Positions 23,003 to 56,668 of a DNA stretch of 64,000 nt are shown one piece after another. Within the stretch, counting starts at the first letter, position 1; every line of letters starts with the position of its first letter. The translations under genes were made by a program, and so were the position numbers. Source of the DNA: Arthrobacter sp. D5-1 (GTDB lineage Bacteria > Actinomycetota > Actinomycetes > Actinomycetales > Micrococcaceae); contig NZ_CP014571.1 of NCBI RefSeq assembly GCF_017357425.1, positions 3,906,001 through 3,970,000 on the forward strand. The letters run 5' to 3'. A model generated the notes under the pieces. The model worked only from the letters and a program-made list of their open reading frames with translations. It did not search any database and was not told the origin of the DNA.

Positions 23003-24592
23003 TCAGATCGTGATCTTGTAGATGTGATGTGTGTACTCGTTGGCGAACGAGTCTGTGAACTTTCCGTTCTGGACAGAGATGGTGCGGTTCTCGCCCACAA
23101 CCTCCACCTGCGTACCGGTGATCCCGGCCGGGAGGGTGAACGTCTTGGAACCTGTACCGCCGTTCAAGCCGATGCCTGCGAAGAGGTAGGCACTTCCATC
23201 CTTCGCCTTAAGCATCGTGTCCGTGCCCGCGGCGCCTGCGTCCCACACATAGCTCTGCGTGTTGAGTACAGGTGCCAAGGACTGGATACCGGCTAGGGCA
23301 GCCTTGATCTTCGCCTTCCTGTCAGCCGGCGCCTGAACCAGTGAGTACGTCCCGAAGCCTGCCTGGCCATTGTTGTTGTGCTGGAAGATACTGATCCCGC
23401 GTGCCTCATGGATGATGCCGGACCACATAGCGCCTTCCATCTGTTCCGGTGTGATGGTGCGGTCATTGGAGGCATTCAGGAACGGGCGTGCCGACTCAAC
23501 AAATATCCAGTTCGGATGGATACCCGGCGTCGACTGGAACTTGCGCATCTGGTCAATCTGCCAGCCGTAGGCCGCCGAGGTAGCAGTGTTCGCACCCTCC
23601 GGCCATGCCGGCGTCCGGTTCAACTCGTCCTGCAGATCCGCCCGCGTGTACATGTAGTTATCCACGGATGCCGCGTCAACAGCAGACATGAAGTCATCCA
23701 TGAGCCCCGGCGCCCAATAGGTTCCCAGGATGCCCTTGGAATAGTTGGCGAACGCAAACCTGCCGTCGTTGAACCCACGGATCTGGGCCACCTTGTTCTT
23801 CATCTGCTGAAGGTTCTGCTCATATGTTGAACCGTTGCAGCCAAGCCCCAGCATGTCGCACTCGTCATAGGTGTCCCAGCCAACCACGTTCGGGTTGCTG
23901 CCCACTTCACTCCGGGACCATTCTGTTCCGGCGATGACCAGCATTCCCGTGTTCGTAATGGACGCCATCGTGGAACCGTCATGCTCGGCGTTCTGGTAAA
24001 CGTTCACGCCAATGTCCTTCAATTGGGTGGCGTGCTCAGGTTTTCCGTAATAGACGCTGACGGGGAACAGATTAGGGTTGTTAAGCTTCGCTGCGCCGGG
24101 GAACTTTGCCCAGTACGCAGGGCCACCATCCCAGGGAACCCGAGCCAGATTGGCGAGGGTGCCGGTGGTTGGAGTTGTGGGGGTTGGGGTGGGCGTCGGG
24201 GTGGGCGTCGGCGTCGGCGTCGGCGTCGGGCTTTCGCTCGTCTCCGTCGGCGTCGGCGTCGGCGTTGGCGTCGGGCCAACCGTCGCCGCACTCGGCGAAG
24301 GCGTCGGGGACGGGCTTTCGCTCGTCTCCGTCGGCGAAGGCGTCGGGGACGGGCTTTCGCTCGTCTCCGTCGGCGAAGGCGTCGGGGACGGGCTTTCGCT
24401 CGTCTCCGTCGGCGAAGGCGTCGGGGTCGGGCTTTCGCTCGTCTCCGTCGGCGAAGGCGTCGGGGTCGGGCTTACGGTAGTCGGACTCGGCGATGCTTCC
24501 GTGGCAGTTATAGTCGGTGTCGGTGTCGGCGTCGTGCACCCTGCCAGAGCCAACGCGATCACCGCCCCAAGCATTGAGACCTTGAGTTTCAT
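23003..24592 (-). CDS. Repeat-linker lipoprotein with a glycoside-hydrolase-like C-terminal domain
   Basis: Predicted surface lipoprotein of 529 residues from ATG 24592, which follows AAAGGA. The signal peptide ends in a lipobox LALAGC with C19. Residues ~28-130 are Thr/Pro/Ser repeats, with about five near-identical 13-residue units ([13 protein letters not shown]) followed by TP dipeptides; this looks like a wall-spanning stalk. The remaining ~390 residues read like a secreted TIM-barrel glycosidase: [36 protein letters not shown] and a C-terminal beta-domain ending in HHIYKITI. I cannot assign a glycoside hydrolase family. The acidic residues WDTYDE and the FVESA Glu are candidates for catalysis. 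Long unexplained 5' leader. Confidence 0.72.
24291..24474 (-). repeat. 39-bp tandem repeat in the lipoprotein stalk
   Basis: About five direct copies of a 39-bp unit (13 codons) that encode [13 protein letters not shown] with Ser/Thr swaps at one position. The units differ at few bases, so copy number could change by slippage or recombination and alter stalk length. Confidence 0.85.
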
Positions 24593-43609: not shown

Positions 43610-43661
43610 AAATTGTGAGGCATGATAAGAGAAATTGTCTGTCCACAGGTGGAGATGGATC

Positions 43662-44855
43662 ATGCCAAAGAGGAAACAGGAACCGCAAGCGGACTCCGGT
43701 ACCACAGCACTTCGAGACACGGCCAAGGCCAATTTGAAGTTCCAGGACCTGAGTGACGACCTCCGCAGGGACATCATCGCCGGTACGTGGGCGGTGGGGA
43801 CGAAGCTCCCCACAGAGCAGCAACTGGCAGCAGAGACCGGACTCTCCCTGACCACGGTGCGGCGGGCCTTCGAGGACCTTGTGGGCAAAGGGCTCGTGGT
43901 CCGGCGGCAGGGTGCAGGCAGTTTCGTCGCCGCACCCCAGCGTGCGCAGAAGCGCTCCCGTTTTGTCATCGGCGTACTGCTCCCGGACACGCAGCTCTAT
44001 TACCCGCGCGTTCTTCAGGGGATCGAGGAACATCTCTCCGCCCGCGGTGCAAGCCTGCAGTTGTCCACGTACCATTACGACTTCACCCGGGAGAACGCCA
44101 GCATCCAGTTCCTCCTGGACGCCGGAGTGGATGGCCTCATCCTGGTGCCAACGCTGACCGGCTTGGCCAACCCCCAGCAGCGCGTTGCCGAGCTCATGGC
44201 CTTGCCCGTGCCGGTTGTCCTCCTGGAGCGGAGCCTGGACGACCTGGGGCCAGGCGACCTCACAGAACACGTCTGCTCTGATCACCAAGGCGGAGCGTAC
44301 GACGCCGTCATGCACCTCCACCGCTTGGGTCACCGAAAGATTGGGCTGCTCACGCGGGCGAACGAGGCCGCTCGCAGCAGCAATCCCACGCAGGCTGCGG
44401 TCATCGCAGGGTATACGGCTGCCATCGCGGCGTTGGGGTTGGAGACCGACACGCGCATGGCATTCAGCGCAACGAAGCCGGAGTGGGAAGCCGATCAGGC
44501 GGAGCACATGTTCGAGCTGCTGGCAGGAAGTGGCGCCACAGCGGCCTTGGTCTTCGGAGACCGGGAAGCGGCTTTGCTGGAAGGAGCGGCGTCCAGGCAC
44601 GGGGTTCGGGTGCCGGAGGACCTCGCCCTGGTTTCTTACGACGACGAAATGGCCGACCTCGCCCGAATACCACTCACGGCGGTCTCGCCGGCCAAGCACA
44701 GACTGGGCGTCATGGCCGCCGATGTCCTGTTGCGTCGGCTGACCGAAGGCGACGCATGTCCGTTGTACCAAATCCGGTTGCGGCCACGCATTGTTGTCCG
44801 TGATTCGTGTGGGGCCAGGAAGAGCGGGGTTCCCCAGGTTTCGCGTGCGTTGTGA
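43662..44855 (+). CDS. GntR-HTH / LacI-type effector domain regulator
   Basis: Regulator of 397 residues from ATG 43662 (GGAG 8 bp upstream); a TTG at 43635 is less likely. Residues ~25-90 form a GntR winged helix (DDLRRDIIAGTW, GTKLPTEQQLAAETGLSLTTVRRAF). Residues ~100-385 are a periplasmic-binding-like sugar-effector domain of LacI type (LILVPTLTG, HRLGHRKIGLLT, ALVSYDDEM). This pairing is known from AraR of Bacillus and relatives. It is divergent from the sulfatase and sits beside the importer. Sugar released from a sulfated polymer probably acts as inducer. Confidence 0.9.
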   Translation: MPKRKQEPQADSGTTALRDTAKANLKFQDLSDDLRRDIIAGTWAVGTKLPTEQQLAAETGLSLTTVRRAFEDLVGKGLVVRRQGAGSFVAAPQRAQKRSRFVIGVLLPDTQLYYPRVLQGIEEHLSARGASLQLSTYHYDFTRENASIQFLLDAGVDGLILVPTLTGLANPQQRVAELMALPVPVVLLERSLDDLGPGDLTEHVCSDHQGGAYDAVMHLHRLGHRKIGLLTRANEAARSSNPTQAAVIAGYTAAIAALGLETDTRMAFSATKPEWEADQAEHMFELLAGSGATAALVFGDREAALLEGAASRHGVRVPEDLALVSYDDEMADLARIPLTAVSPAKHRLGVMAADVLLRRLTEGDACPLYQIRLRPRIVVRDSCGARKSGVPQVSRAL

Positions 44856-44915: not shown

Positions 44916-47287
44916 CTAGCGGCTGAGCTTGATAAGCTTTGTCTGGCCGCTGAGCCCGGCGGTGTCCAACGTCAGTGTGGTTTGTCCCGCAGCATTTGTC
45001 CCCAGTGTGCCGGCACCCTCCACCACGCTGGACCACGTGCCCTCGGGCAGGGTCAGTGTGAGGCTGGCAGCCTTTTGCGTTGGCTCGCTGAAAGCCAGAT
45101 TGAGGACGTTGCCGTGCCTCGAGAACACCACACAGGCAGCTCCGGACGCTCCCAAGTCCCCTGCTGTCCCGGGCTTCCAGAACGTAGCTGCCGTGGTCTT
45201 CGCGGCTTTGAATTCCACGGATTGCGCTGTGGAATCATTGCGGATCACCCTGTATTTGTTTCCCTGCACCAGTTCTTGGGTCACGTTCAGCGAGGCTCCT
45301 GGCGCCACCACATACGCATAGCTGGCCGGGGCAGATCCGGCGCCGTGGTCTATGTAGAGCGTGGCGAAGTTACGCTGGTGGACCGTGGTACTGCCGTTGA
45401 CGTTGACCCCAGCCCAACTGCCTGACCTGGTTTCCCGAAGCACGTGAAGTGGAGAATCGTCCAGCATGGCGTAGCCTCCGAAACCCTCCAAATGGACCCA
45501 GCGCCCATCGCTCAGTACCTCAGCGCTGCCAGCCGATCCGGCGATGGTGCCTGCCGTCGTCGTGAGTGCATTGCTGCCTTGGTGGAGGTTGCGGTGGTCA
45601 ACGATGGTTTCCACGCGGGCGCCGGACCCAGTCCTGATGTCCGCCCCGAGGCATACGGTGACATCGCCGCTGACAAACCAGGACTTTCTTGCAGACAAGC
45701 CCGTGCGGCCCGGCCCCACCAGATGCTGCCCGACGGCGGCAACCTCGCCCAGCGCTGTGGCGCCGCTCCACTCATTGGCCGGGACCGCAGCGCCCCATTC
45801 ACCCTCCACCTTGTCCGGCAAGGGCGTGGTGTCCACGGTGGTGCCGGGGAGGCGGTTGTAGTTGGCCGTGGCCCAGAACGCGTCATCGTACTGGGCGAGG
45901 TCGGACGTGTAGAAGTAGGTCATGCCGGAACCCGTGTGATAGCCGCGGTTATTCTCTCCATTGCCGCATTCGTACCAGGCAATGCGATTGCTGGACATGG
46001 AGAGCGACAATGCCCATCCGGGTCCCCGGTGCATGGTGCGGTCCATCGCCGGGAAGAGCCTGTGGCCTGCCGGTTCTGCTACGGGAGCAACGCCTGTGGC
46101 TTGGAGTTCCTTCACCAGTGCCGTCCTGGGCACGCTTGCACTGCCAAGGATCGGGCGGTAGGTATTGCGGGTAATCCAGCCAGCGCATAATCCCCTCCAC
46201 CGGGCGGCAGTGGCCGGATCCATGGCCCGGGCCAGGAGCAGGATGGCCTCGATGGCCGACGCCCCGAGGTCGTAGCCGGTGTTGGCCTCCCTGCTGATGC
46301 TTCTGCCGCGAACAGAATCGGCCATGGCTCCGTTGATCATCACGGGAGCAAACGAACCCTCCACGGCGTCGAAGAAGATGTTGCGCGACGGGTCGGAAAC
46401 CTCGAATGCCGAGCCTCCCAGCACCGAGAACAGCTTGGACAAACCGGTGAGGAGGACTACACCGTAAGAGCCCGTGTAAGGGGTGGTGCTGTGTTGGATG
46501 AACGAACCATCGCGGAAGATTCCATCCCCGCTGGTGACGAACTGCCACACTTGGCTGAGTCCGGCGACTGCATGTTTGAGTTTGGCCGGATCTTCGCCAG
46601 CCAGGGACCGGATGATGATTCCCTGGCACAGGTCCACCCTGTTGGCCCCACGGACGTGATCTTTCCGCGTTTGGGTGGGAACTGCAGCCAGGGGTCGGGC
46701 ACAAAGTGGTCAATCGCCGCTGAGTAGGCCTGGATTTCGACGGCGGACAGCTCGGCGTGCAGCAGGACCATGGCGTCCGCGAGTGCACGGGGAACGCCGA
46801 TCTCCCACGACCACCAGTTGCCAACCTCTTCCTTGGCGTCGTTGTAGCAAAGGGTGTTGGCATCAGCAAGCCCGGCTTTGATATCTGCCAGCACTGAGGC
46901 ATCCCCAAACACCGCCGCCGTGGGTGTCGCCCAGGCAGTGGCGAGCTGGGAAAGGCGCGTGTACGTGGTGACCATCTCCGCATCCTTGGCGAAGGACAGA
47001 TCCGTGAAGACCGATGTCCGCCCGGACGCCCGGTTGAGTTTTGCCAAGGAGTCGGCGGCTTTGGTGTTCACGGCAGCGACCGCTTTGGCGAAGTCCGGAT
47101 CGCCCGCTTGGATGACATTACGGCCGGTGATCTGGTCCACCCAACGGTTTCGCAGCGCTGCGAACTCCGCTGCGCCCGGTTCGGTTTCGGCCCACGCGTT
47201 CTGGGCGAACATCGAGCTGACCATTGCTGCCAGGGACAGGGCACCGGCGCCCTGAAGAAGCGTTCTGCGGGGGAATTGAAGTGACAA
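44916..47287 (-). pseudogene. Polysaccharide lyase family 8 (hyaluronate/chondroitin/xanthan lyase), frameshifted
   Basis: Read as one gene it encodes a Tat-exported lyase of ~790 residues. Best start is TTG 47287 behind AGGAG; residues RRTLLQGAGALSLAAMVSS form the Tat signal. The N-terminal alpha-toroid is in one frame until GKITSVG, then the next frame continues at [14 protein letters not shown]. The junction lies at a run of four C on the plus strand (46646-46649); inserting one base restores [13 protein letters not shown]. After it come [23 protein letters not shown] (Asn/His/Tyr catalytic region; His in FIQHS and Tyr in TGSYG) and the C-terminal beta domains. Lesion or sequencing error. 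It degrades uronic-acid polysaccharides outside the cell. Confidence 0.9.
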
Positions 47288-47424
47288 GGAGTTGCTCCTA
47301 ACACTCGTGGCTGGACAGGGTCCGGCGTCCTTCGCCGGGTCCGCCACTGGCTTGGGTTGAAGTCAACGCGATGCCGAAGAGAGGAATAAAGCAGTACCTG
47401 GTACGTCCCCGTCGCTGGAAACGT

Positions 47425-48157: not shown

Positions 48158-49144
48158 ATGACTCCTGCACAGACCAAGAACCGTAAGGGCAGCCGGACCC
48201 GGCGCGCCGTCGTCTCCGCCGTTCTGGCGGTCACTCTCTCTGCCGGGGGCGCCGCCGCCTGGGCCCTGGACCGCTTCGTCATTCCGCACGCACAGATCAC
48301 CAACGTCTCCGAATACGAAGCAAGCCAGGCCGGCACTACGACAAACAGCTCGACGGAGGGGACTTCCGCTGACACGGCCGCGACCGCCGTTGTCACCGAT
48401 ACTTCGTACACCTCCGGGGACACCGGCGTCACCATCTCAACGGTGACCACCGGCAGCGGTGACGACACCGTGACGTACTACGTTGCCGACGTCGTGCTTG
48501 AGGATGCCACCACGCTGAAGTCGGCGTTCGCCGAGGATACCTACGGCGGGAACATCACAGAAACAACGTCTGCGATCGCAGGGGACCACAACGCCATCTT
48601 CGCCATCAACGGCGACTACTACGGCTTCCGGGACACGGGCATCGTGATCCGCAACGGCGTGGTGTACCGCGACGAGGGAGCGCGCCAAGGCTTGGCGTTC
48701 TACAAAGACGGCTCCGTCAAGGTCTACGACGAAACCACCACCTCGGCCGACCAACTCATCGCGGACGGTGTCTGGAACACCCTCTCGTTTGGCCCGTCGC
48801 TGCTGGACAACGGTGAAATTGCCTCGGGCATCGAGGACGTGGAAGTAGATACCAACTTCGGCAACCACTCCATCCAGGGCGAACAACCACGAACCGCCGT
48901 CGGCGTCATTGATGGGAACCATCTGGTGTTCGTGGTGGTGGACGGCCGCAGCCCGGGCTATTCCGCCGGCGTCACCATGACCGGCCTGGCGCAGATCATG
49001 AAGGACTTGGGTGCCACCACCGCCTACAACATCGACGGCGGCGGCTCCTCCACCATGTACTTCAACGGCTCCCTGGTGAACAACCCGCTCGGCGAGAACA
49101 AAGAGCGCGGTACCTCGGACATCCTCTACATCGCCCAGTCATGA
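48158..49144 (+). CDS. Exported phosphodiester glycosidase (NAGPA-domain) protein
   Basis: A 328-residue membrane-anchored or secreted protein: basic N-terminus, one hydrophobic segment (AVVSAVLAVTLSAGGAAAW, residues ~17-35), a Ser/Thr-rich stretch and then the NAGPA domain (YYVADVVLEDATTLKSAFA; FAINGDYYGFRDTGIVIRNG; the signature NIDGGGSSTMYFNG near 298-311). Homologs remove GlcNAc-phosphodiester or process exopolysaccharide. It ends with an ATGA overlap onto the glycosyltransferase gene, so it is the first gene of a coupled five-gene operon with a VTC-type polymerase. Confidence 0.85.
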   Translation: MTPAQTKNRKGSRTRRAVVSAVLAVTLSAGGAAAWALDRFVIPHAQITNVSEYEASQAGTTTNSSTEGTSADTAATAVVTDTSYTSGDTGVTISTVTTGSGDDTVTYYVADVVLEDATTLKSAFAEDTYGGNITETTSAIAGDHNAIFAINGDYYGFRDTGIVIRNGVVYRDEGARQGLAFYKDGSVKVYDETTTSADQLIADGVWNTLSFGPSLLDNGEIASGIEDVEVDTNFGNHSIQGEQPRTAVGVIDGNHLVFVVVDGRSPGYSAGVTMTGLAQIMKDLGATTAYNIDGGGSSTMYFNGSLVNNPLGENKERGTSDILYIAQS

Positions 49145-50286
49145 TCGTCCTGATACCGGCGTACGAGCCGGACCACCAGCTCACTTCCCTTGTCCGCAGT
49201 CTTCGGGAAGCCGATCCGTGGCTGACCATCGTGGTGGTGGACGACGGCTCCGGACCGGACTACCAGACCACGTTCGACGACGCCGCCCGGCTTGGGTGCC
49301 AAGTGCTCAGTTACGCGGTGAACGGCGGAAAAGGCCACGCCCTCAAGAGCGGGTTTACCTTCGTCGCGGAACGTTTTCCGGGCCACGACGTTGTCTGCGC
49401 TGACAGCGACGGACAGCACGGGGTGGCCGACATCCTCGCCGTTGCTGACCGCGTCCGGCACGTCACAGCTGCGATGGTACTTGGCTGCCGCAATTTCACC
49501 GGTGATGTCCCGGCCAAAAGCAAGTTGGGAAACACGGTGACGCGCTGGCTGTTCAGGCTCGCGACGGGTCAACGGATCACGGACACGCAGACAGGCCTTC
49601 GCGGCTACAAGGCTGACATGCTTCCGTGGCTGGTGACAGTCCGCGGACAACGCTACGAATACGAACTCAATCTGCTGCTCGAGGCGAAACAGGCCGGATA
49701 CGGCATTGAGAGCGTGGAAATAGCCACGGTCTATCTCGACGGGAATTCGGGATCGCACTTCAGGCCCGTTGCCGATTCGCTGCGGATTTATGCGCCCTTG
49801 CTGAAGTTCCTTGGCTCGTCGCTGTCCGCGTTCGTGGTGGACACGGTGATGTTCGTGGTCCTCAGTGCCCTCACGGACTCCCTGCTGATGGCGGTGGTGG
49901 GGGCCCGCTTGTTCAGCGCTTCGGTGAACTTCATGGTTAATCGAAGGCTGGTGTTTGAGCATGGCCAAGACACGTCGTTCCGTGCCGCAGCCACGGGATA
50001 TGTGGCCTTGGTGACTGTCCTGTTGTGCGCCAATTACGCCGCGATGTGGGCCCTGACGTCCCTGGCCGTCCCGGACCTGCTGGCCAAACTGGTGGCCGAA
50101 GTGACCCTCTTGGGTGTCAGCTATGCCGTGCAGCAGCGCTTCCTTTTTGTGCGCACGGCGCGGGCAGCCGCAACGAAACCGGCCCCCGTCGAAACGCATA
50201 TCCCAGCATTGGTCCCGACACAGTTTCAGCACAGCATGACCGGGAAAAGTGGAGACCAATCCCCCAAGAGATTCCGGAGTAACTGA
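49141..50286 (+). CDS. GT2 glycosyltransferase fused to a GtrA-like membrane domain
   Basis: Residues ~1-235 are a GT-A fold polyprenyl-phosphate glycosyltransferase with VVVDDGSG (31-38) and the metal site DSDGQH (88-93); GQRITDTQTGLRGY near 150-163 is the DPM1/GtrB-like block. Residues ~245-380 carry the GtrA-like domain with four helices, implicated in flipping the lipid-linked sugar. The fusion thus combines making and flipping a polyprenyl-phosphate sugar in one protein. It overlaps the NAGPA gene by 4 bp and the DUF4956 gene by one base (TGATG). Confidence 0.88.
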   Translation: MIVLIPAYEPDHQLTSLVRSLREADPWLTIVVVDDGSGPDYQTTFDDAARLGCQVLSYAVNGGKGHALKSGFTFVAERFPGHDVVCADSDGQHGVADILAVADRVRHVTAAMVLGCRNFTGDVPAKSKLGNTVTRWLFRLATGQRITDTQTGLRGYKADMLPWLVTVRGQRYEYELNLLLEAKQAGYGIESVEIATVYLDGNSGSHFRPVADSLRIYAPLLKFLGSSLSAFVVDTVMFVVLSALTDSLLMAVVGARLFSASVNFMVNRRLVFEHGQDTSFRAAATGYVALVTVLLCANYAAMWALTSLAVPDLLAKLVAEVTLLGVSYAVQQRFLFVRTARAAATKPAPVETHIPALVPTQFQHSMTGKSGDQSPKRFRSN

Positions 50287-50972
50287 TGAACACCATCATT
50301 CTTATCGCGGCAGATTTGGCCGCCATCGCCATTCTGACGCTCGCTCTCTACCTCCGCCGGCACCGGCGCCGCGACCTGGTGGTGTCCTACTTGGGCATGA
50401 ACGTTGGCGTCCTGGCCGTGGCAACGGCGTTGTCCGGATCAGCTGCCGGTGTTGGCTTGGGACTTGGCCTGTTCGGAGTGCTGTCGATCATCCGGCTCCG
50501 GTCCACGGAACTCGCCCAGCACGAGGTGGCCTACTACTTCTCAGCCCTGGCCCTGGGCCTGATCGCGGGTATCGGCGTGGAACCGCTCTGGCTGACCCTG
50601 TCCCTCATGGCGCTGGTGCTCCTGGTGATGTTCGTCGGCGACAACCCACGGGTCCTGCCGGCCTACCGTCACCAGACCGTAGTCCTGGACCGCGCCATCA
50701 ACAACGAGCCCGAGCTCTACGCCCGGCTGGAGGAGGTTCTCGACGGCACGGTCCATTCGGCCACCATCCAGGAGTTGGACATGGTCAACGACAAGACGAT
50801 CGTGGACGTCCGTTACGCAGTCCACCCCCAGCAGCAGCCACAACCCCCACAGCTTGGTTTCAACCAGCCTGCCGGCGCCCTCTCGCCCGCACCTCAGGAA
50901 CTGCCCGCGCAGCCCGGGCCGGCAGCGGAGCACACCCAGCAGTCCGTGCCCACCTCGGCTGGTGTAGCGTGA
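50286..50972 (+). CDS. DUF4956 membrane protein
   Basis: A 228-residue protein with ~4 membrane helices in the first 125 residues (ADLAAIAILTLALYL; MNVGVLAVATALSGSAAG), the block FGVLSIIRLRSTELAQHEVAYYF near 63-85, and a soluble C-terminal domain (residues ~135-180) with a Pro/Gln-rich tail. The family is known to be next to VTC-domain polyphosphate polymerases in many bacteria; its activity is not defined. Coupled to both neighbours by overlaps of 1 and 4 bp. Confidence 0.85.
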   Translation: MNTIILIAADLAAIAILTLALYLRRHRRRDLVVSYLGMNVGVLAVATALSGSAAGVGLGLGLFGVLSIIRLRSTELAQHEVAYYFSALALGLIAGIGVEPLWLTLSLMALVLLVMFVGDNPRVLPAYRHQTVVLDRAINNEPELYARLEEVLDGTVHSATIQELDMVNDKTIVDVRYAVHPQQQPQPPQLGFNQPAGALSPAPQELPAQPGPAAEHTQQSVPTSAGVA

Positions 50973-51757
50973 GCCGCGTCGATGCCGCACCGATCATGCC
51001 GCAGCTGGGCGGCCTGCCCGCCGTCGGACTTGAAGAACTCACCACGGAAGCCGCACTGCTGACCCGGGTCGACCGAAAGTACCTGGTTCCGTCGGCGACG
51101 GCCCGCCAGATCCTGAGCACGTTCAGCACAGAGGCCCGGGTCCTGGAAATGGACGGGAAACGCACCTTCGCCTACGACTCCGTCTACTTCGACACCCCGG
51201 GATTGGACAGTTACCTTCTGGCCGCCCATGGACGGCGCCGCCGGTTCAAGATCCGTACGCGGACCTACCTCGACAGTGCGGTCAGCTTCCTGGAAGTGAA
51301 GACCGAAGGCGCCCGGGAGGCAACGGTCAAGGAACGGATTCCGTACGAGGTGTGCGACCGGGACCGGCTGACCGCGGAAGGCCTGGCCTACGTGAACGAG
51401 ACCTTGGCCGCCACGATTGGAGATGTCACCTTCAGCCCCTTGGAGCCCGTCCTTTCCACACGATACGACCGCACCACCTTGTTCCTCCCCGGGTCCGGCA
51501 GCCGCGCGACCATCGACAACGACGTCACGTGGCAGAGCCCCTACGGCCAACCATGGGTGCTGGACAACGCCGTGGTGGTCGAGACGAAATCCGGCTCCGC
51601 CCCCGGCCCTTTGGACAGGCATTTGTGGGCGCACGGCGTCCGGCCGTGCCGCATCTCGAAGTTCGCCACCGGGATGGCTGCGCTCCACCCGGAGCTCCCT
51701 GCCAACCGCTGGAACCAGACCCTTCGGCGCAGGTTGCCCCTGACCCCCCTCCACTGA
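50969..51757 (+). CDS. VTC-domain polyphosphate polymerase
   Basis: A 262-residue VTC tunnel-fold protein; the GTG at 50969 overlaps the upstream stop (GTGA). All basic tunnel blocks are present: RVDRKYLV (33-40), RRRFKIRTR (near 89-98), FLEVKTEGAREATVKER (107-123), STRYDRTTLF and VVETKSG. In eukaryotes Vtc4 makes polyphosphate from ATP at the membrane; bacterial homologs are only partly characterised. Here it lies between a DUF4956 membrane protein and a DUF4353 lipoprotein. Polymerase activity is inferred from the intact tunnel residues. Confidence 0.85.
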   Translation: MSRVDAAPIMPQLGGLPAVGLEELTTEAALLTRVDRKYLVPSATARQILSTFSTEARVLEMDGKRTFAYDSVYFDTPGLDSYLLAAHGRRRRFKIRTRTYLDSAVSFLEVKTEGAREATVKERIPYEVCDRDRLTAEGLAYVNETLAATIGDVTFSPLEPVLSTRYDRTTLFLPGSGSRATIDNDVTWQSPYGQPWVLDNAVVVETKSGSAPGPLDRHLWAHGVRPCRISKFATGMAALHPELPANRWNQTLRRRLPLTPLH

Positions 51758-51787
51758 CCTTCCCTCCACAGACTAAGGAATCCCACC

Positions 51788-53398
51788 ATGCGCTCCTTCC
51801 GCACGTCCCTTTCCGTTGCCGCCGTCGCCCTGGCCATCTCCCTGGCCGGGTGCTCCACGGCCGCCACCAACTCCACCTCCACAGGCACCACCGGTACTTC
51901 CACCACGACAACAACCACCCAGCAGGCAGTCACCGCCGCCACCATCGAGGAAGACACCCACTACGACAGCGACGACCTCAACTGGGATACCGCTGCTGAA
52001 GTGGCAATCAGCCTGGCCGACGGCGGCAGCAAAGTGACGTCGTCGTCGTCCACCGGCGTGGCGGTAGACGGCAACACCATCACGATCAGCGCAGCCGGAA
52101 CGTACCGCCTCAGCGGCTCGCTGACGGACGGCCGGATCGAGGTGGCTGCCAGCGATTCGGACACCGTGCGCATCATTCTGGATGGAGTCGAACTGGGCAA
52201 CTCCGGCGGTTCGCCGTTCGTGGTGCAGAGCGCCGACGAAGCAATCGTGTACCTGGAAGAGAGCAGTACCAACGCGTTGACCGACGCCGCCACGTACACA
52301 GACCAAGGCGACGACGCCCCCAACGCTGCGCTTTACTCCATGGCGGACCTGACCATCGCAGGAACCGGATCCCTCAGCGTCAACGGCAAGTTCAACGACG
52401 GCATTGTTTCCAAGGACGGACTGGTGATGGCCGCCGGCAAGGTCACTGTGGACGCCGTGGACGATGGAATCCGTGGCAAGGACTACACGGTCCTGCTGGA
52501 CGGCGCCTACCAAGTCACAGCCGGCGGGGACGGCGTCAAGGCCGACAACGAAATGGACGAAGGCCGGGGCTGGCTGCTCGTCAGCGGCGGCTCACTGACG
52601 GTCAACGCCGGCGACGACGGCGTAAAAGCCTTCAACACCCTCACGGTTTCGGGCGGGACGGTCACTGTGGCCGAATCGGAAGAAGGACTCGAAGCGCAGC
52701 ACATCGCCATCTCCGGCGGCGATGTCACCGTCACCTCACACGACGACGGCGTGAACGCCTCGGGAAGTTCGTCCACATCAGCGGATGCCGGTGCGGGGGA
52801 CGCCGGTGCCGCCGCCGGCGGGATGGGTGGACCCGGCGGTGGCGGCATAGGCGGTGAGTCTGCCGCCGGGGATTACACCGTGGACGTTTCGGGTGGAACA
52901 CTGACCATCAATTCCGACGGAGACGGGCTGGATTCCAACGGCAGCGCCACGATCTCCGGCGGCACCGTGGTGGTCAACGGCCCCACCAACGACGGCAACG
53001 GCGCACTCGATGTGAACGGCGAACTGGTAGTCACCGGCGGAACCGTGGCAGCAGCAGGAAGCGCCGGAATGGCAGTCACCCCGGGGACCTCGTCCACGCA
53101 GTCGGGCGTACAGCTGACCTTCAATTCCTCGGTTGCCGCCGGCACTCCGGTGCACATCGTTGACCCGTCCGGGGCTGTGATTGCCACGTTCGTGACCACT
53201 AAGTCCATTGCGTCCTTGGTGTTGTCCTCCGCAGCGATCACCGCTGGGGAAAGCTACACGGTGTACACGGGTGGCACCGCAGATACGAAAGCGGGTCTGA
53301 CCACGGGATCCATTGAGGGTGCTGAGGAACAGGGAACCGTCACCGCTGGGCAGTACACCCAGGCCCAGGGGCCCGGGGGTGGTGGCGGCCGCCGCTAG
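51788..53398 (+). CDS. DUF4353 carbohydrate-binding lipoprotein
   Basis: A 536-residue surface lipoprotein: signal ISLAGC with C22 as the lipidated residue, a Thr/Ser-rich linker, then repetitive parallel-beta-helix-like sequence (SADEAIVYLEESSTN; FNDGIVSKDGLVMAAGKVTVDAVDDGIRGKD; SGGSLTVNAGDDGVKAFNTL). Repeated GGDV/GDDGV turns suggest a solenoid. The C-terminus ends with a Gly/Arg tail GPGGGGGRR. Family members occur near VTC/DUF4956 clusters. Gap of 30 bp to VTC; last gene of the operon before a hairpin. Confidence 0.8.
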   Translation: MRSFRTSLSVAAVALAISLAGCSTAATNSTSTGTTGTSTTTTTTQQAVTAATIEEDTHYDSDDLNWDTAAEVAISLADGGSKVTSSSSTGVAVDGNTITISAAGTYRLSGSLTDGRIEVAASDSDTVRIILDGVELGNSGGSPFVVQSADEAIVYLEESSTNALTDAATYTDQGDDAPNAALYSMADLTIAGTGSLSVNGKFNDGIVSKDGLVMAAGKVTVDAVDDGIRGKDYTVLLDGAYQVTAGGDGVKADNEMDEGRGWLLVSGGSLTVNAGDDGVKAFNTLTVSGGTVTVAESEEGLEAQHIAISGGDVTVTSHDDGVNASGSSSTSADAGAGDAGAAAGGMGGPGGGGIGGESAAGDYTVDVSGGTLTINSDGDGLDSNGSATISGGTVVVNGPTNDGNGALDVNGELVVTGGTVAAAGSAGMAVTPGTSSTQSGVQLTFNSSVAAGTPVHIVDPSGAVIATFVTTKSIASLVLSSAAITAGESYTVYTGGTADTKAGLTTGSIEGAEEQGTVTAGQYTQAQGPGGGGGRR

Positions 53399-53423: not shown

Positions 53424-53449
53424 GCGGGCAGGGTACCGGTCCTGCCCGC
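53424..53449 (+). terminator. Hairpin after the DUF4353 gene
   Basis: GCGGGCAGG (53424-53432) with CCTGCCCGC (53441-53449). GC-rich stem without a strong T-run; a plausible operon end. Confidence 0.65.
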
Positions 53450-56007: not shown

Positions 56008-56194
56008 TTCCAACCGACCCACCACGCACGAGGCATGACTCCTGCAAGCCTCCCCCACAAACTTGATGCGAACTTGAGCCAAACGAAAAGGTTCCTTGAT
56101 ATAGCGGCGCCACGCTGGAATCAGTCGGAACACCAATACCGAGGGGTTTCGGCAACGAATCTCAAGTATGAAAGACATCGATGTGGGGGACGCA

Positions 56195-56668
56195 ATGGAG
56201 CAGTCATCAGCACTCAGTGAGGTAGTTGCCGTTAAGGGCATCATCCAGGATCAACACCCCGTGGATTTTTACGCGCTGGGCGTCGCTGGATGCATCGACC
56301 GACTCGCCGCGCCGCTCCGACGCACCGGCGTCACCGTGCACTGGCACACCCCGCATCATGGCATCGAGATCTCATCGAAAGCCGCCGCCCTCCTTTATCA
56401 CGTGGCGCAGGAAACCTTCAGCAACACCCTCAATTACGCCGGCGCCAGCGAGCTCACCGTCCGCCTCAACGCCGTCTACCACGGCATCCAGCTGACCATC
56501 ACGGACGACGGCGCCGGTTTTGAAATCCACGCCTCGCCCAGCGGCCGGCGGCACGGTTTTGGCTTGCTGCTGATGTCCATCGCAGTGCACGACGCCGGCG
56601 GGACAGTAGACATCGACTCCGCACTCGGGCGGGGCACCAGCGTCAGGGTCACGCTGCCGCTGGATTGA
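56195..56668 (+). CDS. Orphan HATPase_c-domain protein (sensor-kinase C-terminus without DHp)
   Basis: Probably starts at ATG 56195 (GGGGGA upstream) or ATG 56168 and encodes 157-166 residues. It contains only the ATP-binding half of a NarL-type histidine kinase: N-box-like ETFSNTLNYAGA near residue 78-89 (numbered from 56195), D-box DDGAGFE near 110, G-box GFGLLLM near 128 and GRGTSVRVTLPLD at the end. The conserved N is kept. There is no phospho-accepting His domain, sensor or partner response regulator nearby. It could be a truncated kinase or an anti-sigma-like ATPase. Confidence 0.78.
   Translation: MEQSSALSEVVAVKGIIQDQHPVDFYALGVAGCIDRLAAPLRRTGVTVHWHTPHHGIEISSKAAALLYHVAQETFSNTLNYAGASELTVRLNAVYHGIQLTITDDGAGFEIHASPSGRRHGFGLLLMSIAVHDAGGTVDIDSALGRGTSVRVTLPLD

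Follow-up and report, generated by a model that had tools for sequence, protein, structure and literature searches.

Polyphosphate (polyP) synthesis by an enzyme of the VTC fold is known from the eukaryotic VTC complex (Vtc1/Vtc3/Vtc4), in which, according to the available passages of a study in yeast, synthesis in the cytosol is coupled to passage through the membrane by a channel lined with lysine and arginine residues (PMC9911596). Bacterial polyP metabolism through PPK1 and PPK2 has this chemistry in common and is carried out by different protein families. Here we analyze an operon of five genes from Arthrobacter sp. D5-1 that encodes a VTC-type polymerase directly after a membrane protein of the DUF4956 family; it lies in a window of 64,000 nucleotides, by which we mean the whole stretch of DNA that was analyzed (NZ_CP014571.1, positions 3,906,001 to 3,970,000). 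VTC and DUF4956 form a conserved module with exchangeable partners, a conclusion that is well supported and about which we have very little doubt. A more tentative proposal, suggested by sequence and gene context, is that the two proteins form a bacterial version of the VTC complex, split over two chains, which makes polyP and passes it to a partner at the cell surface; we would put its chances just short of even.

Parts of this association are already in print. The first-pass annotation of the window had remarked that VTC and DUF4956 co-occur, and this is right: in the excerpts of a study of Gram-positive pel loci, the accessory genes cotH-PPP-DUF4956-DUF4832 likewise combine a VTC-type polymerase, DUF4956, and CotH in surface-polymer loci (PMC7112168). 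That set differs from the window in having CotH in place of Cthe_2159 and pel genes adjoining it, and the excerpts name no NAGPA or GT2-GtrA gene and give no function. The excerpts on the C. perfringens locus NELoc-2 describe VTC/'tubulin' pairs, in which a protein of 222-226 aa that localises to the membrane comes after each of two VTC genes, and CotH is next (PMC2879425); by size and place this protein is probably DUF4956, here in an unrelated host and with other surface genes around it. In the literature searched, we found no description of a general pairing rule, of partner exchange, of fusions, or of the five-gene form, and in the portions of it available to us DUF4956 is seldom named and no function is stated for it.

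The operon consists of five co-directional open reading frames (ORFs) on the forward strand at 48158-53398. They encode, in order, a NAGPA-type phosphodiester glycosidase (48158-49144, 328 aa; PF09992, E 6.3e-40), a fusion of a GT2 glycosyltransferase with a GtrA/DPMS membrane domain (49141-50286, 381 aa; PF00535 and PF04138), the DUF4956 membrane protein (50286-50972, 228 aa; PF16316, E 7.5e-59), a putative polyphosphate polymerase of the VTC/TTM type with a GTG start (50969-51757, 262 aa; PF09359, E 7e-27), and a beta-helix lipoprotein of the Cthe_2159 family (51788-53398, 536 aa; PF14262, E 6.8e-69). Successive overlaps measure 4, 1, and 4 bp, and a 30-bp gap precedes the Cthe_2159 gene; the ORF and Pfam searches thus bear out the five genes and the spacing first described. 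The closest named relatives are Paenarthrobacter and Arthrobacter. Compared with the eukaryotic complex, the polymerase fold and the tunnel residues are the same, whereas the bacterial set has no SPX domain and no fused membrane domain (DUF4956 would serve as one), has exported neighbors, and shares its genome with PPK enzymes, namely one match to PPK1 and two to PPK2 at sites away from the operon. A family search of the same genome found no match to CotH, and the window is not an example of the CotH-type module. Just 3' of the operon, at 53424-53449, two perfectly matching 9-bp arms of an inverted repeat enclose a loop of 8 bases, with no T run, as read by eye.

The pairing of VTC with DUF4956 was counted in 396 Actinomycetota genomes, in which both families, CotH, and Cthe_2159 were searched with Pfam. 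VTC is present in 42 of these genomes and DUF4956 in 44. Every VTC genome has DUF4956 at E <= 0.001, above the family cut-off in 41 and below it in one (G477), and DUF4956 occurs without VTC in two genomes (G557 and, below the cut-off, G527). Among 14 control genomes, the two families are found in the identical three: Bacteroides ihuae, Corynebacterium glutamicum, and Methanosarcina acetivorans. The two genes are also close neighbors, lying less than 1 kb apart in 39 of the 40 phylum-sample loci (which come from 37 genomes) and in every family-sample (39/39), genus-sample (12/12), and named (22/22) locus. A 4-bp overlap like that of the window is present in at least 58 of 114 loci, a lower bound that depends on mechanical ORF starts. 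On plasmids, all 11 loci taken from plasmid records have the two genes adjacent, across Bacillota, Deinococcota, Pseudomonadota, and Actinomycetota; the 11 were selected from 19 hits, and seven of the remaining eight belong to Aminobacter or Shinella. For the neighborhoods, 37 of the 42 VTC genomes were used, with the window's counted separately and four left out, and seven loci with identical VTC ends and two with no VTC hit (L195 and L206) were dropped before counting. The genomes are not independent, so p-values for co-occurrence are too strong and a VTC tree is the better control; local family models were counted on the very loci used to build them, and the genome-wide counts come from Pfam.

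Beside this pair usually stands an exported protein, and it is this protein that is exchanged. CotH occurs in 30 of the 396 genomes (25 with VTC, 5 without) and Cthe_2159 in 23 (21 with VTC, 2 without). At least one of them is found genome-wide in 41 of the 42 VTC genomes, with both in five; the sole VTC genome that has neither is G477, whose VTC contig measures 5,885 bases. Within 4 kb of VTC in the phylum sample, CotH is found at 22 of the 40 loci, Cthe_2159 at 16, either at 37, and both at one. The control genomes agree, with CotH in C. glutamicum and M. acetivorans and Cthe_2159 in B. ihuae. In the best tree, built from 83 VTC proteins, the label switches between CotH and Cthe_2159 at least seven times, one switch separating L154 from L155, which are supported sisters; in this tree 31 of the 80 inner branches are open, and the starred branches alone give 5 changes (CotH) or 6 (Cthe_2159), each label being set against all others. 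A signal-like segment was detected in 25 of 32 nearby CotH copies and 62 of 66 nearby Cthe_2159 copies, and in the CotH alignment three aspartate columns are kept in 31-32 of 33 proteins. The window's own partner scores 232.5 bits against PF14262, has the PDB relative 4peu (5.1e-35), and carries a lipobox, LAGC, identified by eye; its family is presumably the one formerly named DUF4353. On alphaproteobacterial plasmids (L223, L224, L225, and L227, from Aminobacter twice, Shinella, and Nitratireductor), a phytase-like gene comes after DUF4956-VTC, an annotation that Pfam confirms in two of them, and on the Nitratireductor plasmid a phosphate transporter stands in between.

CotH is also found on the same chain as VTC. 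At L133 (7410-9782), a single protein of 790 residues carries VTC and then CotH, joined by a hydrophobic stretch that contains a lipobox. Of 407 hits, the 120 that were listed include five more VTC+CotH proteins (P0243 and P0246-P0249, 698-826 residues). The hydrophobic or lipobox stretch between the two domains is visible by eye in all six fusions, including that of L133, which the signal-segment script missed because it read ORF starts only. It is possible that CotH starts anew inside the fusion frame.

The polymerase has an intact active site. The window's VTC protein scores 94.9 bits against PF09359 (cut-off 23), and the VTC domain is alone on its 262-aa chain. A single-sequence search of the PDB with this protein found no relative; a profile of 52 VTC proteins reached yeast Vtc4 (3g3q, E 5.2e-23). 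In a fold search with its AlphaFold2 model (predicted local distance difference test, pLDDT, 92.8), the top 13 PDB matches were all VTC chains, the best being Vtc4 3g3r (2.8e-13), and other tunnel enzymes and triphosphatases were weaker (for example, E. coli ygiF, 3.3e-8). We compared 13 positions of Vtc4 taken to belong to the tunnel. R264, R266, and E426 among them are backed by passages of the yeast study, according to which an R264A/R266A/E426N complex is catalytically impaired (PMC9911596). At 12 of the 13 positions, the Vtc4 residue is identical in all 52 VTC sequences: K200, R264, R266, E279, K281, and K294 correspond to K37, R96, R98, E109, K111, and K121 of the window protein, and R361, R373, D377, E426, K428, and K458 to R168, R179, D183, E205, K207, and K231. 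The tunnel residues, which the first-pass annotation had called intact, are indeed so. Judging by these sequence features, the VTC-DUF4956 module is likely to make polyP, and since PPK1 and PPK2 are encoded elsewhere, its VTC enzyme probably serves more than ordinary polyP storage. A eukaryotic-type VTC complex was rejected as a class for a polymerase chain that has neither SPX nor a membrane domain; at most, the window's VTC works like such a complex.

The membrane part may be contributed by DUF4956. The window's protein scores 198.7 bits against PF16316 (cut-off 30.6), and its AlphaFold2 model (pLDDT 84.2; predicted template modeling score, pTM, 0.64) has five membrane-length helices (2-25, 29-50, 55-74, 78-96, and 101-119) followed by a soluble-looking C-terminal beta-alpha-beta-beta domain. 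Aligned by hhalign with one MgtC-like protein (MgtC, PF02308), the family gave E 0.16 and a probability of 0.37, where 100 is the maximum. In 40 sequences, Y22, R70, R72, and G91 are invariant and R25 is nearly so, with R70 and R72 within the last part of helix 3. By the positive-inside rule, the cytosolic side would hold the C-terminal domain together with the arginine-rich loop that follows helix 1 and the terminal part of helix 3, and with this placing the invariant arginines would be located where a chain from VTC would arrive, much as lysines and arginines line the yeast channel (PMC9911596). The best reading is that DUF4956 passes polyP out of the cell, for which we see an even chance.

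In the mechanism that we propose, VTC would be a cytosolic tunnel enzyme that extends polyP from ATP, as its fold and the invariant Vtc4 residues suggest. DUF4956 would be its membrane partner, standing in for the membrane domains of yeast Vtc1/3/4, and would most likely take the growing chain at an arginine-rich cytosolic mouth and let it out. The exported protein encoded alongside, whose linkage is observed, may receive or use the polymer: the Cthe_2159 lipoprotein here, and a CotH kinase or a phytase-like protein elsewhere. GT2-GtrA, through a lipid-linked sugar, and NAGPA, which cuts sugar-phosphate diesters, would probably tie the polymer to a surface glycan or free it from one; this is the weakest step. 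If the proposal is true, bacteria own a split VTC machine that places polyP outside the cell, separate from PPK1, DUF4956 gains a function, and there is a possible answer to the question of where exported CotH kinases obtain phosphate.

Several observations weigh against a split VTC complex that serves a surface partner. The fold search with DUF4956 gave no support in either direction. Vtc4 K455, the thirteenth tunnel position, is not conserved; it aligns with R228, in a column that holds R in 19, S in 15, and A in 10 of the 52 sequences. L113, the one phylum-sample exception to the close spacing, has a VTC gene with CotH and lacks DUF4956 within 1 kb, and in L206, a decayed copy, DUF4956 is whole and VTC and GT2-GtrA are present in fragments only. 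The roles given to NAGPA and GT2-GtrA are guesswork. Finally, 15 of the 39 family-sample loci have neither CotH nor Cthe_2159 within 4 kb, and 11 of these 15 genomes have neither genome-wide; in the others, CotH is found elsewhere in three and Cthe_2159 in two, one genome having both. These Micrococcaceae loci are L175, where a histidine kinase lies next on the opposite strand, and L177-L190, and the 11 that were kept as rows of the VTC tree form one group with support 91. The pair can thus occur without a recognizable exported partner, which is not obligatory there. Further loci with no partner within 4 kb are L118, L125, and L142 (three of the 40 in the phylum sample) and the named locus L074, at a contig end.

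The first two genes of the operon are best read as a lineage-specific add-on, found in Micrococcaceae and in one genome of another family. The NAGPA protein scores 137.6 bits against PF09992 (cut-off 25), has the PDB relatives 6ozd (1.9e-12) and 6pki (1.5e-9), and begins, by eye, with a hydrophobic segment; it is probably extracytoplasmic, and 39 of the 43 NAGPA copies near VTC have a signal-like segment. The GT2-GtrA protein matches GtrA_DPMS_TM (E 1.8e-11) and Glycos_transf_2 (E 2.2e-7) and is a probable polyprenyl-phosphate-sugar synthase on this domain content; at 58 of 370 bits it falls far under the cut-off of the NCBIfam PpgS equivalog, which was rejected, and belongs to the broader GT2 and GtrA/DPMS families. 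Both genes lie within 6 kb of VTC at 43 of the 114 loci, and near VTC at one of the 40 phylum-sample loci. Cthe_2159 is present in 42 of the 43, the last (L074) being cut by the contig end, and CotH is present too in two. The complete five-gene set is therefore found together in 42 of the 114 deduplicated VTC loci, the window included, counting as present those genes that read as two ORF pieces in L066, L073, L077, and L164; restriction to this strain, which the first-pass annotation had named as a refutation, is not what the neighborhoods show. The window's gene order, taken from mechanical ORF starts, is kept in 37 of the 42. Three sets are rearranged (L164, L165, and L172), odd ORF calls make L070 and L077 fail the order test, and in L071 an fn3-domain gene is inserted between GT2-GtrA and DUF4956. 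L146, which belongs to a different family within the order, shares the window's arrangement. Among the genes that flank the operon in the window, a member of the mycothiol-S-transferase family recurs beside only 16 of the 42 full sets, and close MFS relatives occur at six. With all five genes together in so many loci despite changing flanks, the arrangement is beyond chance, and from these counts and orders the association of the add-on looks selected. The operon had initially been read as a machine for a phosphate-containing surface polymer, or as a link between polyP synthesis and glycan export. This is supported in part: its direction toward the surface stands, whereas display of such a polymer or a tie to glycan export is conjecture, and the five genes form a modular unit, made up of a VTC-DUF4956 core, a swappable third gene, and the NAGPA and GT2-GtrA add-on.

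Gene order could also be kept through simple shared ancestry of the whole region. Close relatives do keep the flanks, and the upstream gene family accompanies 16 of the 42 five-gene loci; however, it is missing from the other 26, and the three rearranged sets and the collinear L146 already contradict this explanation, which we consider very improbable. More thought is due to the idea that the polyP made by VTC remains in the cytosol, with DUF4956 merely anchoring or regulating VTC at the membrane and the exported neighbor controlled together with them and having no contact with polyP. The soluble-looking domain of DUF4956 could then be a sensor, and the VTC clade without CotH or Cthe_2159 would be readily accommodated. 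Yet the genome already encodes PPK1 and has two PPK2 matches, CotH or Cthe_2159 accompanies VTC in 41 of 42 genomes and the two replace each other beside it, and there are even proteins in which CotH follows VTC and a hydrophobic segment on one chain, all of which makes a purely cytosolic product unlikely.

Doubt can also be directed at the product. Bacterial VTC might be another phosphoryl- or nucleotidyltransferase, acting on a phosphodiester-linked surface glycan that NAGPA trims, and not a polyP polymerase; triphosphatases and further tunnel enzymes do appear in the VTC fold search, with weaker E-values, the operon itself includes NAGPA and GT2-GtrA, and VTC-DUF4956-CotH sets are found in glycan or pel loci. 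We regard this as decidedly unlikely given that VTC chains fill the top 13 fold matches, that 12 of 13 Vtc4 positions are invariant, and that the two glycan genes accompany VTC at so few phylum-sample loci. An alternative that retains polyP export makes the polymer an extracellular phosphate donor for CotH kinases where these are present, with Cthe_2159 binding it in the window's version. The swap of CotH for Cthe_2159 beside VTC, the VTC-CotH fusions, and the preserved aspartate columns of CotH would all suit such a role, but CotH kinases use ATP, the window's genome has no CotH, and Cthe_2159 is not a kinase; we find it less likely still. A wider form of our own proposal, in which VTC-DUF4956 is a widespread prokaryotic polyP exporter, secreted CotH kinases or VTC-CotH fusions phosphorylate surface proteins or glycans from its product where ATP is lacking, Cthe_2159 lipoproteins hold the polymer at the wall, and the window is the Cthe_2159 version with a glycan-linking add-on, is unlikely to be true as a whole.

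Elsewhere in the window, a PL8 polysaccharide lyase on the reverse strand (44916-47347) is split between two frames, with one ORF at 46457-47347 and the other at 44916-46637, reflecting a broken gene or a sequencing error, and a GntR-type regulator adjoins it at 43635-44855. A 39-bp unit is repeated in tandem at 24206-24473 (6.7 copies, 85% matches), and a 166-aa ORF at 56168-56668 consists of a histidine-kinase-type ATPase domain alone.

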